Part shown: positions 30,800 through 40,146 of the stretch, in pieces
Layout: each line of letters begins with the position of its first letter
Numbering within the stretch: the stretch's first letter is position 1
From: an uncultured Gammaproteobacteria bacterium
Lineage (GTDB): Bacteria > Pseudomonadota > Gammaproteobacteria > GCA-001735895
Length of the DNA stretch: 46,482 bases
Assembly: GCA_937894085.1 (NCBI GenBank)
Contig: CALCSG010000225.1
Span: 1-46,482, forward strand
Direction: 5' to 3'
Notes under the pieces: model-generated
What the model was told of the DNA's origin: nothing
The model's input: only the letters and a program-made list of their open reading frames with translations
Databases searched by the model: none
Program-made: the position numbers and the translations under genes

Positions 30800-30868
30800 A
30801 AATTACTAATATTTAGTGCCTGAAAAGACACGAGATTTTCTTTCTAATTTGTGGATGTCTTATTTATT
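30800..30868 (-). repeat. Accessory-region repeat, copy 1 (69 bp, truncated)
   Basis: 68/69 identical to 31753-31821; overlaps the stop of the DUF2726 gene. Confidence 0.92.
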
Positions 30869-31568
30869 CATTTATGACCTCAGTATATCTGCATTTTGGA
30901 AATGCACTGCATGCCCAAAATTCATTACCAATATTTTTGCCTTTTTTAGCAACCTTTTTGACCATTGCTGATGAACACTTTGGGCATGTTTTTTCTTCTT
31001 GAATATCATATTCTTCGGTAACTGGTGTTTCTAGAGTTGAATTCACATCAAGCTCTAAAGTTTTTGTAGCTTCAGAAGGAAGGTATGACACAAATAATTG
31101 TTGTATTTCGTTAATTCTGTAAGTTGCCTGTGCCGGAATTTGAATGAGTGATAAGCCTGCGGCATCACACGCACCCTCTAAAAAAGCATCACGCTCCTGA
31201 CGTTTTTTAGAATTGTGGGATTTATCATCGAGTTCAATTACACACAAAACTGAAAGATTGTTTTTATCGCACAACAAAAAATCAAAATGCTTTCCTGATA
31301 TTTTATTAAACGCCACTTGCCACTGGCTGCGCGGCATACCTTTTTTAGGAGTAATTACATCTGCCACTCGAACCTTACCAAATATCTGGACATGCTCACC
31401 AATTGCTTGATTTAAAACACCCAGAAAAGAACGTTCTGCAGGACTAAAAAGAGTGTCTATTTTTCTATAGGGTAAATTATTAGACGAAGTCTTTTTATTT
31501 TGCGAAAGCTTTAATATAACAACTGCAACAATTGTTACCACTATTAAGATAATGATTATCCAGATCAC
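30864..31568 (-). CDS. Membrane-anchored DUF2726 (restriction-endonuclease-like) protein with C-terminal zinc ribbon
   Basis: 234 aa; N-terminal TM, 'DFLLCDKNNLSVLCVIELDDKSHNSKKRQERDAFLEGACDAAGLSLIQIPA', C-terminal 'CPKCSSAMVKKVAKKGKNIGNEFWACSAFPKCRYTE'. Confidence 0.85.
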   Translation of the reverse strand: MIWIIIILIVVTIVAVVILKLSQNKKTSSNNLPYRKIDTLFSPAERSFLGVLNQAIGEHVQIFGKVRVADVITPKKGMPRSQWQVAFNKISGKHFDFLLCDKNNLSVLCVIELDDKSHNSKKRQERDAFLEGACDAAGLSLIQIPAQATYRINEIQQLFVSYLPSEATKTLELDVNSTLETPVTEEYDIQEEKTCPKCSSAMVKKVAKKGKNIGNEFWACSAFPKCRYTEVINE

Positions 31569-31587
31569 TCTAACTCCGTACTTTTAT

Positions 31588-31645
31588 GTATAACGTTAAA
31601 GCTCCGCAGAGCGCGCTTTTTGCACGACCGTTGGAGCACCTTGCT
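31588..31645 (-). other. Partial attC-like recombination site (site C)
   Basis: Minus-strand read ends ...GCGCGCTCTGCGGAGCTTTAACGTTATAC, 20 bp before the GTG start of the DUF2726 gene; partner arm ggagc present, outer partner arm not found. Confidence 0.4.
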
Positions 31646-31707
31646 GGTCTATTTACTTAACTACTTAAATCCCTGCCCAATTTAATTTGTATCCGACCCC
31701 AGTTATT

Positions 31708-31821
31708 TAATTTTCGACTAAAAAACTGCAATTCAGGTTATTTAGTCATCGAAAATTACTAATATTTAGTGCCTGAAAAGACACGAGGTTTTCTTTCTAA
31801 TTTGTGGATGTCTTATTTATT
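31708..31821 (-). repeat. Accessory-region repeat, copy 2 (114 bp)
   Basis: 112/114 identical to 31990-32103. Confidence 0.95.
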
Positions 31822-31989
31822 GTGTAAGCAACTGGGCAAAAGCTGGTCACAGGGTATCAACAAGTGTGCCGAATTATTTCCAGAAACATAAATTTAGAAA
31901 TAAATAGCATCAATCCTTCTCATTTCTAAGCCATAAAAGATGGCTTTGACTCCTTATTTCCAGAAATCAGCAATATTTATAATCTCTGC

Positions 31990-32103
31990 TAATTTTCGGC
32001 TAAAAAACTGCAATTCAGGTTATTTAGTCACCGAAAATTACTAATATTTAGTGCCTGAAAAGACACGAGGTTTTCTTTCTAATTTGTGGATGTCTTATTT
32101 ATT
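31990..32103 (-). repeat. Accessory-region repeat, copy 3 (114 bp)
   Basis: 112/114 identical to 31708-31821; internal hairpin ttttcggctaaa...tttagtcaccgaaaa. Confidence 0.95.
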
Positions 32104-32112
32104 CTTATTTAT

Positions 32113-32204
32113 TCCCTATTCCCCGGAACAGCAAAGTTGGCGGGGCTTTTACGACAGCAAAATGGCGTGCCAATTTTTCTGTTTCCGAGTGAATTTTAAT
32201 TGTT
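32113..32204 (-). other. Truncated attC-like site (site B)
   Basis: Minus strand: ACATAACAATTAAAATTCACTCGGAAACAGAAAAATTGGC ... GCCAACTTTGCTGTTCCGGGGAAT; palindromic arms match, outermost ~15 nt of right arm missing where the repeat begins. Confidence 0.55.
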
Positions 32205-32211
32205 ATGTTTG

Positions 32212-33009
32212 TTAGTCATCTTTGACATACTCAGGGTCATGCCTACAGTATGGGCAAATAGATTCACCATCTTCCCAGCTTGTCATTTGCCACATTGGCC
32301 ATTGGCTTCCGCATATCCCGCAATCCACCTCTATATCCTCAGACTCCTCATTACCGCAAAATGTGCACATATAACCAGAACTAGAATCTTCATTGATAAT
32401 CATGGTGTCATGATCGCACTCATAACAATGATATACATTCATGTTATCCTCTTTTGGATCCAACCCTCTAAGAGCTTCCTCTACCTCTGTTTCTGCTTTT
32501 CTCAGGCGACCTTCATATGTATTAGCTAATTCATGAAATAGGTCATACTGCTCAGCAGTTATATATGAACTTAATTCAATATTCTCATGTGACTCATCAA
32601 ATTCAACGACCGCGCTCATAAGCCGACCAATTGCTTCTTCAACTTCCTCAACATCCATTGAAAACTTATGATGTTCGATATTATTTCTTAATTTCTTTAA
32701 CCACTTTATATCTTTTTCAAACTTGTCTGAAATATCATGGCCTTCATTTTTGAGGAAGTTAATCGCCTCAAATAATCCAATGGTTTGTGATTCACCATTA
32801 ATTGTTTTGGCAAATGGGTTTTTATAGATCAATAGTGGGTGAGACTGGGTTACGTAATATTTAAGAATAAGCTCAAGGAAATGTGATAAATGCTGAACAC
32901 AAAACTTATATGATTTATCCTCACCATCCTTGCCTTCTTGATATTTCGCAAGAGCCTCATTCAAGCTATCAATAGCATTTTCAAGTAAATCAAGTTCTAC
33001 ATCAGCCAT
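32212..33009 (-). CDS. Putative HEPN-motif protein with C-terminal zinc ribbons
   Basis: 265 aa; 'KKLRNNIEHHKF' (RNxxxH) in an all-helical N-terminus; C-terminus with four CxxC pairs. Confidence 0.7.
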   Translation of the reverse strand: MADVELDLLENAIDSLNEALAKYQEGKDGEDKSYKFCVQHLSHFLELILKYYVTQSHPLLIYKNPFAKTINGESQTIGLFEAINFLKNEGHDISDKFEKDIKWLKKLRNNIEHHKFSMDVEEVEEAIGRLMSAVVEFDESHENIELSSYITAEQYDLFHELANTYEGRLRKAETEVEEALRGLDPKEDNMNVYHCYECDHDTMIINEDSSSGYMCTFCGNEESEDIEVDCGICGSQWPMWQMTSWEDGESICPYCRHDPEYVKDD

Positions 33010-33037
33010 TTTCTATTTCCTGTAAGGTGCTTTTGAA

Positions 33038-33131
33038 ACATAACGGCCAAAATTACCGGAAGGCAAAAGCATAGCGACGAGGAACGAGGAGTGTAGCTTT
33101 TGACTTTCCGAGTACATTTTAATTGTTAGCA
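33038..33131 (-). other. Full-length attC-like recombination site (site A)
   Basis: Minus strand TGCTAACAATTAAAATGTACTCGGAAAGTCAAAAGC...GCTTTTGCCTTCCGGTAATTTTGGCCGTTATGT; imperfect palindrome with unpaired G and T on the left arm; 3 nt 3' of the PutAbiC stop and 29 nt 5' of the next start. Confidence 0.75.
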
Positions 33132-33134
33132 ACA

Positions 33135-34013
33135 TCACTTTAAATTTAACTTTTCCATTTCTTCGTTTTCACCAAACGATGACTTTCCATAATACTTAAT
33201 TGCTGACTGCAATATATCTGTGTTTAGCCCATTCACTTTAAATGACATGTGTTCAAAAAATTGATACCTACTTATTAAAATGCGATACCTCTCATATTGA
33301 TCTTCTTTATTTTCAGAATAGCAATTAGCAACTAATAGCTGAGTTACTTCGTTGCTTAAAACTGCCCTTACCATATTTGAATATGTTTTTTCATTTGCCC
33401 CAACTTGGTTTGCAATTAGCTGTTTACAATTAAACTCACCACCTAGTTTTGATTCGGGATTATTTACTGCAATGAGCTTTAGAAGTTGATACAACAATCT
33501 AAAATAGTGCCCCAATAAGTAGTTTTCATCATTAAAAGAAGTTTTAAGCTCAGATAAATTGTTTGCGTTACCAAAGCAGTATTTATGGGCTTTAAGAATT
33601 ACGGAAGAGTTATTCAACTCTTTTAAGATCTCATTATGCTGATTGAATAATGAAAAAAATGTATCTTCAAACCTTTGTTTCTCTAACGTAGTTGATTGTT
33701 CCTTTAATGCTGTTGAAGTTATAGCAAGTTCCTTTCTAGTTAACCTCAGTTCCTTTTGCTGTAAAATTATTGTTATTAACAACCCCATAAAGGTTAAAAA
33801 AGTTAATAACGGATTTAATAAACCACCAAAAAAATCCCCAAAAACTCCGATATTGTCAGAATAGGGAATACTTACTATGCCAATAATAAATACTGACAAA
33901 ATTAAATATACTGCAGATTGAAACAAGCGAAATAAATTTCTAGATGTTTTGTCATGAGACAAACCAATTACTCTTATGAATCGGCGGTAAGATCGTTTTA
34001 AAATCATTCTCAT
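33135..34013 (-). CDS. Putative phage abortive infection protein (PutAbiC-like)
   Basis: 292 aa; two N-terminal TMs then 'FGDFFGGLLNPLLTFLTFMGLLITIILQQKELRLTRKELAITSTALKEQSTTLEKQRFEDTFFSLFNQHNEILKEL'. Confidence 0.88.
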   Translation of the reverse strand: MRMILKRSYRRFIRVIGLSHDKTSRNLFRLFQSAVYLILSVFIIGIVSIPYSDNIGVFGDFFGGLLNPLLTFLTFMGLLITIILQQKELRLTRKELAITSTALKEQSTTLEKQRFEDTFFSLFNQHNEILKELNNSSVILKAHKYCFGNANNLSELKTSFNDENYLLGHYFRLLYQLLKLIAVNNPESKLGGEFNCKQLIANQVGANEKTYSNMVRAVLSNEVTQLLVANCYSENKEDQYERYRILISRYQFFEHMSFKVNGLNTDILQSAIKYYGKSSFGENEEMEKLNLK

Positions 34014-34283
34014 AGTAATATTTAATTTTTCATCTTTTCAATTGCTAACAGCTTGATTATGTGACACGCAAAAATATTGACTTATGTTGCACGCACGGCT
34101 ATTGACTTATGTTACAAAAAAAACTCATATTGATCTCATTGGTTTATATGACTGCACTAGCTCGGTCAAATAATGAAAAGGTTGATATTTTTTTAGTTAA
34201 CTATAACAAATTGATCAATTAGCTTTTCCCTGAATGACGAATATAGTGAATGTTCTTCCATTGACTCTTATTCATAACCATAA

Positions 34284-35935
34284 CCTGATTCCGTAACTTA
34301 AAAAACGGTTAACCCCCTACAAGCCCTGAAATCACAAAGCTTTCAGGTTAAAATAAGCCCTCACAAAAAGTCACCCAGCAAGTGAATTATGAATCGCTTC
34401 AAATTCGTACAATCCGATGCTGAAATTATCAGTCACAGTGGTTTGTCCCTGATAGGTCAGGCGGTCAAACAGTATACAGCTTTATCTATGGAATTGGATA
34501 AAAGCGTTGCCCTTCGCCATGGCATCAAACACTCAGATGTCATAAAAAGTTATCTCGGATTAGTGGCAACAGGCAAGAATGATTTTGAAGCAATCAATAC
34601 CATAGACAGCGAATTTTATTTCATCAACGCCATGGGGCTTGACGAAATTCCAGGAGAAGCCACCCTGCGCCAACGCATGGATAAACAGGCCCGGACCTTT
34701 TTGCCGATTGTAGAGCGGGCCAGTATTGATTTCCTTTCCACCATTCAACCAAAGCTGACACCGGTCTTTACCGGGCACTTACCGCTGGATGCCGATGTCA
34801 CCCCGATGGATAACTCGGGCAGTCACAAGGAAGGGGTATCAAGAACCTATAAGGGGCATGACGGTTATGCGCCCATGGCGGTTTATCTCGGAAGTGAAGG
34901 TTATTGTCTGCGACTGGAATTACGTGAAGGTAAACAGCACTGTCAGAAAGATACCCCTGAGCTTTTAGCCAGAGCATTACAGGATGCAAGGCGCATCACG
35001 GATCAACCCATCCTGATTCGGCTGGATGGCGGTAATGATGCGATAGAAAATATCGACATGATTCTTGAACACACGCAAAATCAACACAAAGCAGAAGCGG
35101 CCATTGATTTCATCATTAAATGGAATCCACGCCGGATTGATAAGGACGAATGGCTTGAAACCGCCGAGCAACAAGGCTGCTGGGCGCATCAGCGCGAAGG
35201 CAAGCGCACGGCCATCTTTAGTCAGCATGTGGCGCGCCAATGGCAAGGCTATGATTATCAGGTGCGCCGTGTGATACGTTTGAGTGAAAGAACGATCGAC
35301 AAACACGGACAGGCCTTACTGATTCCTGAGATAGAGCCGGAGGGTTGGTGGAGTAGTCTGGACAATGCGGAAGACGAGGTGATCAAGCTGTATGCCGATC
35401 ATGGGACTTCCGAGCAGTTTCATAGTGAGTTCAAAACGGATCTGGATATCGAACAACTGCCCTCGGGGAAATTTGCCACCAATGCCCTGATCCTGGCGAT
35501 CAGTGCATTGGCTTACAATATTTTGCGCTGGATTGGGCAAAATGGGTTAATCAAACCCGGCAGATCAAAACGATATCAAGCTAAAAGAAGAAGAATCAAA
35601 ACCGTGATGCAGGAATTGATGTACCGAGCGGCCAGGGTCTGCAAAACAGCACGGAGCATTCAGCTCTCGTTTGGAAAAGGTTGCCCTGTCTTTACGATTA
35701 TGAACAATCTGTACCAGCGTTTAGCCTACGGCTAAACCTAAAAATTGATCAATGGATCAAGGGGGTATTGCCTCTAAAATAAGGTGGCACAGTCATCAGG
35801 CTGCAAAAATATACAAAATATTAGAGAGCCTCCTCATCAAAGGCAAGAGGTCTGCCATTAAAACTGAAAGTGATGACAGAAAATGGTAAATAATCACGAA
35901 ATTATTCGGCAATACTGTAAAGTTACGGAATCAGG
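34284..35935 (+). mobile_element. IS1380-family insertion sequence
   Basis: 16-bp perfect TIR CCTGATTCCGTAACTT (34284-34299) / AAGTTACGGAATCAGG (35920-35935); 5-bp direct repeat cataa on both sides (34279-34283, 35936-35940). Confidence 0.93.
34389..35735 (+). CDS. IS1380-family transposase
   Basis: 448 aa; 'LDADVTPMDNSGSHKEGVSRTYKGHDGYAPMAVYLG...LIRLDGGNDAIENI...HGTSEQFHSEFKTDLDIEQLPSGKFATNALILAISALAYNILR'. Confidence 0.95.
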   Translation: MNRFKFVQSDAEIISHSGLSLIGQAVKQYTALSMELDKSVALRHGIKHSDVIKSYLGLVATGKNDFEAINTIDSEFYFINAMGLDEIPGEATLRQRMDKQARTFLPIVERASIDFLSTIQPKLTPVFTGHLPLDADVTPMDNSGSHKEGVSRTYKGHDGYAPMAVYLGSEGYCLRLELREGKQHCQKDTPELLARALQDARRITDQPILIRLDGGNDAIENIDMILEHTQNQHKAEAAIDFIIKWNPRRIDKDEWLETAEQQGCWAHQREGKRTAIFSQHVARQWQGYDYQVRRVIRLSERTIDKHGQALLIPEIEPEGWWSSLDNAEDEVIKLYADHGTSEQFHSEFKTDLDIEQLPSGKFATNALILAISALAYNILRWIGQNGLIKPGRSKRYQAKRRRIKTVMQELMYRAARVCKTARSIQLSFGKGCPVFTIMNNLYQRLAYG

Positions 35936-38301: not shown

Positions 38302-40146
38302 ATGCCACAGTACCGTTCTAAAACATCTACCGCTGGTCGTAATATGGCTGGTGCCCGTTCACTGTGGCGTGCCACCGGCATGAAAGATAATGATTTCGAA
38401 AAACCCATTATTGCGGTGGTTAATTCTTTTACCCAGTTTGTGCCCGGTCATGTGCACCTGAAGGATCTCGGGCAACTGGTCGCCCGCCAGATCGAAAGCG
38501 CCGGTGGGGTAGCGAAAGAATTTAATACCATTGCCGTCGATGACGGAATTGCGATGGGTCATGATGGCATGCTTTACAGCTTACCGTCTCGCGACATTAT
38601 TGCAGACTCGGTTGAATACATGGTGAATGCACACTGCGCCGATGCCATGGTGTGTATTTCCAACTGCGACAAGATCACCCCCGGTATGTTTATGGCTGCC
38701 ATGCGCCTTAATATCCCTGTCGTTTTTGTGTCCGGCGGCCCGATGGAAGCCGGTAAGAGCAAGCTTTCAAAACATGGCCTGGACCTGGTAGACGCAATGG
38801 TCATTGCGGTTGATGATTCCGTCAGCGACGAAACGGTTGCCGAAATCGAGCGCAGCGCCTGTCCTACCTGCGGCAGTTGCTCCGGCATGTTCACCGCCAA
38901 TTCGATGAATTGCCTGACTGAGGCGTTAGGCCTGTCGTTACCGGGCAATGGTTCGGTGCTGGCCACGCACAGTGATCGTGAACAGTTGTTTCTCGATGCC
39001 GGCTCACTGATTGTTGATATCACCAAACGCTATTATGAGCAGGATGATGAATCGGTATTGCCCCGTTCACTGGCCAGTTTTAAGGCATTTGAAAATGCCA
39101 TGAGTCTGGACATAGCCATGGGCGGCTCGACCAACACTATTTTGCATTTACTCGCAGCAGCCCAGGAAGGTGAAGTTGACTTCACCATGAAAGACATTGA
39201 CCGCCTGTCACGCCAGGTCGGCCAATTCTGCAAGGTTGCCCCGAATACACCAAAATATCACATGGAAGATGTACACCGCGCTGGCGGTATCATGGCTATT
39301 CTTGGTGAAATGGATCGTGCCGGTCTGATTCACAACGAATTACCGATGATTCACAGCCCTTCAGTAAAAGCAGCCCTGGCAAAATGGGACATCATGCAAA
39401 CCGACAGTGAAGCGGTTAAGACTTTTTATAAAGCCGGCCCTGGCGGTATTCCCACGCAGACGGCTTTCAGTCAGAGCACCCGCTGGGACAGCCTGGATAC
39501 TGATCGTGAAAATGGTTGCATTCGTTCCTACCAGCACGCTTATTCCACAGAGGGTGGACTGGCAGTGCTGTATGGCAATATTGCGGTCGATGGCTGTGTG
39601 GTCAAAACTTCCGGTGTTGATGAAAGTATTCTGCTGTTTGAGGGTCGCGCACATATCTGTGAAAGCCAGGATAGCGCGGTTGAAGATATTCTCGGCGACA
39701 AAGTTAAGGCGGGTGATGTCGTGATTATCCGTTACGAAGGCCCGAAAGGCGGGCCGGGTATGCAGGAAATGCTTTACCCGACTTCCTACCTGAAAACAAA
39801 GGGACTGGGTAAAGCCTGCGCCCTGCTGACAGATGGCCGCTTCTCCGGCGGAACATCAGGACTGTCGATTGGACATGCATCACCTGAAGCGGCTGCGGGT
39901 GGTGCTATAGCACTGGTGGAACAGGGAGACATGATTAAAATCGACATTCCCAATCGTTCGATAAACCTGCTTATCAGTGATGAAGAACTGTCTCAACGCC
40001 GCGCGGCTATGGATGCCAAAGGCAGTGATGGCTGGAAACCAGCGGCAGAACGACCACGCGCCATTTCATCGGCTTTAAAAGCCTATGCCAAAATGGCCAC
40101 CAGCGCCGATAAGGGCGCGGTCAGGGATATCAGTCAACTCGACTAA
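38302..40146 (+). CDS. ilvD: Dihydroxy-acid dehydratase
   Basis: 614 aa; '[18 protein letters not shown]', '[33 protein letters not shown]', '[22 protein letters not shown]'. Confidence 0.99.

Follow-up and report, generated by a model that had tools for sequence, protein, structure and literature searches.

A small integron cassette array remote from the integrase gene in the genome of an uncultured gammaproteobacterium

The window analysed here (46,482 nucleotides, contig C225) belongs to a 6.0-Mb draft genome of 567 contigs and carries between dsbB and ilvD a region that is, with high confidence, the remnant of a sedentary chromosomal integron system, small, orphaned and in decay. Two genes of this region, coding for a putative phage abortive infection protein (putAbiC) and for a HEPN protein, are integron gene cassettes as judged from their sequences, followed by an intact attC site (attC1) and by the relic of another (attC2), respectively. 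The interpretation as integron cassettes, proposed by an earlier sequence-only reading, is supported by a held-out covariance model (R2), by a rule on cassette boundaries, by an integron integrase gene and attC sites elsewhere in the genome, and by homologous cassettes of two of the three genes in other places. The array is genuine but ordinary, being of a known kind with dozens more such sites in the same genome.

attC sites and cassette boundaries

Three consecutive ORFs lie on the minus strand (33135-34013, 32212-33009, and 30864-31568), and no integrase was found within the window, both as noted earlier. The array is situated inside the 46-kb contig with non-cassette genes on either side. 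Its border is formed by an IS1380-family insertion sequence 235 bp upstream (34284-35935, plus strand; NF033539, E 1.8e-94). This element looks intact, having the inverted repeat CCTGATTCCGTAACTT and flanking CATAA direct repeats. The array is upstream of ilvD (38302-40146), at a distance of 4 kb. A repeat search also revealed a 114-bp local repeat with an internal palindrome, which occurs in three minus-strand copies around the third ORF, a DUF2726 gene (window 30800-32103), and nowhere else in the genome; one copy adjoins the lost 3′ end of attC2 (31990-32103), and the second and the partial third are at 31708-31821 and 30800-30868. A scan of the window at Rfam gathering thresholds gave zero matches.

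The reference set of attC sites came from named integrons and from arrays adjacent to genes for integron integrases; a piece of the Salmonella plasmid pESI that turned up along with them was set aside. Since MAFFT misaligned the 3′ arms when full attC sites were used, the arms were aligned with the loops masked. Folded as DNA, most of these sites show the R box, three to four unpaired bases, five pairs, a bulge, three pairs, a second bulge and further pairs, and the window site at 33038-33131 folds in the same geometry. A first covariance model, R1, was built from ten attC sites and recovers known ones; this narrower model gives attC1 just 9.3 bits, because the central spacer of attC1 is one base longer. 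The second model, R2, was made from 42 matches of R1, none from the window but partly sister sites of the same genome, and its E-values are rough owing to short calibrations. Beside the integrase of genome G014, R2 finds eight sites at E < 0.001, and it has no match at E <= 0.01 in G021-G026 and in three of the seven same-genus genomes.

The palindrome at 33038-33131 on the minus strand is, by its architecture, a real attC site. R2 scores it at 35.8 bits (E 5.9e-7) with ends falling exactly on 33038 and 33131. These ends read ACATAAC and GTTAGCA, the arm AAAAT(g)TAC(t)CGGAA pairs with TTCCGGTAATTTT, and the extra G and T are confined to one arm, in agreement with the R boxes, arms and one-sided unpaired bases described beforehand. 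An unpaired central spacer, an L stem with these extrahelical bases, and a terminal stem are all present, and the bottom strand folds better than the top (-13.4 vs -10.9 kcal/mol). The arm-pairing score of 19.2 was equalled in one of 20 shuffled windows, and the z-score of DNA folding is -2.99. The consensus of attC boxes is RYYYAAC for R″ and GTTRRRY for R′. In attC1, R″ (TGCTAAC, 33131-33125) and R′ (GTTATGT, 33044-33038) have the AAC and GTT cores at the exact ends and match this consensus partly; such looser outer bases are also seen in many control attC sites. Related sequences occur elsewhere in the genome: an attC on contig C241, behind a different gene, is 95% identical to attC1 over 58 bp, and the left arm TAACAATTAAAATNNACTCGGA has nine genomic copies at two or fewer mismatches and none in a reversed control. 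Neither of the two outcomes named in advance as speaking against an attC, namely absence of an attC match or membership in a non-integron repeat family, was encountered.

Cassette boundaries were examined by the rule that the 5′ end of a cassette, or R′ of the preceding site, is complementary to R″ of its own attC. Among control arrays, 31 of 38 neighbouring pairs (13 arrays) obey it at all four variable positions, whereas 3 of 38 do so when the pairs are mismatched as a control. Both window cassettes agree with it at seven of seven bases. The 5′ boundary of cassette 1, GTTAGCA (34043-34049, minus strand), is the exact complement of the attC1 R″, so that the putAbiC cassette spans about 34049 to 33044; cassette 2, with the HEPN gene, extends from 33044 to the decayed attC at about 32120-32208. 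Each ORF is followed by its site in the same orientation, the putAbiC stop at 33135 by attC1 from 33131 and the HEPN stop at 32212 by the attC2 R″ from 32208. attC1 lies 3 bp past the putAbiC ORF and 29 bp ahead of the HEPN ORF, which agrees with the spacing given in the earlier reading. Neither R2 nor an attI comparison found an attC or attI in front of the 5′ junction of cassette 1 (CAAGCT/GTTAGCA). In a small sample of the genome's other array starts at non-attI, non-attC sites, three of four read AACT/GTT.

The second site, at about 32120-32208 on the minus strand, was once an attC and is now a relic: its R″, ACATAAC (32208-32202), is exactly complementary to GTTATGT (33044-33038) at the start of cassette 2. 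In its left half (ACATAACAATTAAAATTCACTCGGA) it agrees with other attC sites of the same genome. Its R′ box is gone, the lost end adjoins the 114-bp repeat, and R2 gives it 8.9 bits (E 4.3). The site originally placed at 32113-32204 stands as to the attC-derived left half but not as an intact attC. A third proposed site at 31588-31645 was rejected, with no match by R2, a fold unlike attC, and no relatives in the genome.

Cassette cargo

The gene of cassette 1 (33135-34013, minus strand) encodes a putAbiC protein of 292 aa (PF16872, E 2.4e-13). In Vibrio sp. HDW18, a homologue (32% identity) has an attC on either side within a seven-site array, and three homologues in genomes of the class have no attC near them. 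The gene of cassette 2 (32212-33009, minus strand) encodes a HEPN/DUF3644 protein of 265 aa (PF05168/PF12358), which matches the PADLOC family PDC-S64 (E 7.6e-28), a candidate defence family. The motif RNNIEH, read from the sequence, fits the R-X4-H pattern of HEPN domains, and zinc-ribbon cysteines are present at the C-terminus. No attC was found near the HEPN homologues on a Serratia plasmid and in G351. Taken together, the cargo is probably anti-phage, with one putative abortive-infection gene and one candidate defence gene.

The third gene (30864-31568, minus strand) encodes a DUF2726 protein with a topoisomerase-type zinc ribbon (PF10881, E 1.5e-43; PF01396, E 4.4e-11). R2 has no match 3′ of this ORF, below 30864. 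A homologue in G169 (55% identity) terminates within an attC R″ box. The gene is a candidate cassette, not a proven one, without an attC of its own at this locus. Two observations come from other genomes. In one, a sequence (L143 1149-1400) that follows the attC of a DUF2726 cassette gives the impression of being the beginning of a group II intron of the attC-targeting type. In G014, the array next to the integrase includes a cassette (L138 9609-10280) for a nuclease-like protein, whose zinc ribbon is similar to that of the window DUF2726 protein.

Integron components elsewhere in the genome

The integron-integrase model TIGR02249 detects one gene above its cut-off, on the 4.1-kb contig C14 (336.7 bits). 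Up to residue 291 it shares 85% identity with an intact integrase from the same genus, and the similarity resumes 137 nt further on in another frame; therefore, an insert of about 120 bp (L015 3269-3405) appears to split the gene and to part the catalytic tyrosine from the rest. The break is an insert inside the contig, away from the contig end. No contig joins C14 to the window. The sole integron integrase of this genome is thus apparently broken, while relatives in the genus and the family carry intact IntI. Relics of other integrases were seen at L032 2039-2223 and L031 503-625. A recombinase gene on C215, considered as a second integron integrase, belongs to a different type of tyrosine recombinase and lies beside an IS91-like gene; other recombinase matches (C550, C349, and others) are far under the integron-integrase cut-off.

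As a search of the rest of the genome for further arrays, R2 detected at least 32 attC sites at E <= 0.01 on 14 contigs, a lower bound in that 150 of 367 candidates were scored and the whole-genome search missed the window site itself. An array on C35 contains toxin-antitoxin-like cassettes, recognised from their sequences rather than by family search. Cassettes of this kind are a usual feature of sedentary integrons.

Of the side results, the most interesting is that the genome has several attI-like copies lacking an integrase. The attI region beside the broken intI (L015 2179-2357) recurs by similarity on four other contigs (L086 2651-2821, L028 4115-4282, L088 3914-3969, and L093 80-116), 72-92% identical and each followed by cassettes; no integrase was found at these four solo copies. 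In C222 and C241, the similarity has a common starting point, as though a separate unit of about 170 bp had been copied. No sequence of the window matches the C14 attI.

Origin and classification of the array

In the scheme that we favour, an integron integrase would have inserted two cassettes, putAbiC with attC1 and HEPN with the attC2 relic, at a place now far from any integrase. We infer that they came in through recombination at attC, perhaps into an attG-like site outside attI that reads CAAGCT/GTTAGCA; a 5′ junction preceded by no attC or attI is in keeping with insertion at such a secondary site. Even if IntI were provided in trans, excision of the putAbiC cassette would be difficult for want of an intact attC partner upstream, and the HEPN cassette would be fixed because its attC has lost the R′ box next to the 114-bp repeat. 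With no working integrase and a damaged second attC, both cassettes would now be fixed, their cargo presumably expressed from their own promoters or from surrounding ones.

That the palindrome is a terminator or a REP/MITE-type repeat resembling attC by accident is very improbable and already largely refuted. It does occupy the gap between two same-strand genes, a usual place for a terminator, in a region containing other repeats, but a terminator scan does not list it, its geometry and boxes match attC at the E-value given above, the cassette boundaries match, and related left arms occur in arrays adjoining intI. An origin of the array from a complete integron split by the draft assembly, with the true integrase intact, is improbable as well. 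The large number of contigs and the shortness of the one bearing intI would favour it, and draft genomes are known to overstate CALINs (PMC9024848). However, the location of the array inside a 46-kb contig with non-cassette flanks places it physically apart from intI, and the insert in intI is internal to its contig rather than terminal.

A rival of more weight, which we regard as quite possible though short of probable, accepts the cassettes as integron-derived but has them moved by transposition through IS1380 or by ordinary rearrangement of a main array, not by an integrase acting at a secondary site. The proximity of the IS1380 element and the 114-bp repeats adjoining the lost end of attC2 speak for such a movement. 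On the other hand, the element has inverted repeats of its own with CATAA flanks and does not bracket the cassettes, and the 5′ boundary of cassette 1 is exactly G/TTAGCA, as predicted for insertion by an integrase. No empty site was readable in relatives, because the genes around dsbB are not arranged in a conserved order there. Integrase-mediated insertion also leads to a wider and rather doubtful idea, that the whole genome harbours a scattered integron in which solo attI copies and secondary-site arrays were fed in trans by one integrase that has since been broken. In this view, secondary arrays in the genome would start at sites resembling the attI core, mostly AACT/GTT, and at the window array AGCT/GTT. 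If this idea is true, the window array would illustrate, in a natural setting, how cassettes enter a chromosomal site other than attI.

As to class, the default definition of a CALIN in IntegronFinder 2 is at least two attC sites with no intI nearby (PMC9024848). The window array resembles a CALIN in carrying attC-bearing cassettes with intI absent nearby, but by the R2 count it has one intact attC and one relic of 8.9 bits; of the label "CALIN-like array" used initially, integron cassettes without intI hold and the two-site definition is missed. Nor is it a complete integron, with intI on another contig and no C14 attI match in the window. It is like the sedentary chromosomal integrons of Vibrio, Xanthomonas and marine gammaproteobacteria in attC architecture, one-ORF cassettes, toxin-antitoxin or defence-like cargo, related attC sites within the genome and a genomic integron integrase, and unlike them in that the array is remote from intI, which appears disrupted. 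In Xanthomonas, similarly, an inactivated integrase is accompanied by attC clusters (CALINs) dispersed at other loci (PMC12444791). The proximity to ilvD shared with Xanthomonas is probably a coincidence, because the window array is upstream of ilvD whereas the Xanthomonas intI is downstream (PMC12444791). Compared with attG insertions, as far as PMC12444791 outlines them in citing Loot et al. (2024), the array likewise starts from a GTT outside any attC or attI, but in the window case insertion is proposed from sequence, and no empty site was found.

The array adds one little-studied gammaproteobacterial lineage to the genomes with sedentary integrons. About a tenth of Vibrio cholerae cassettes are anti-phage according to the summary of Darracq et al. 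(2025) in PMC12409362, and the probable cargo described here fits the recent view, as given there, of integron cassettes as a bank of anti-phage genes. Together with its start site, the array offers a natural case of how cassettes may become fixed in chromosomes after loss of the integrase.
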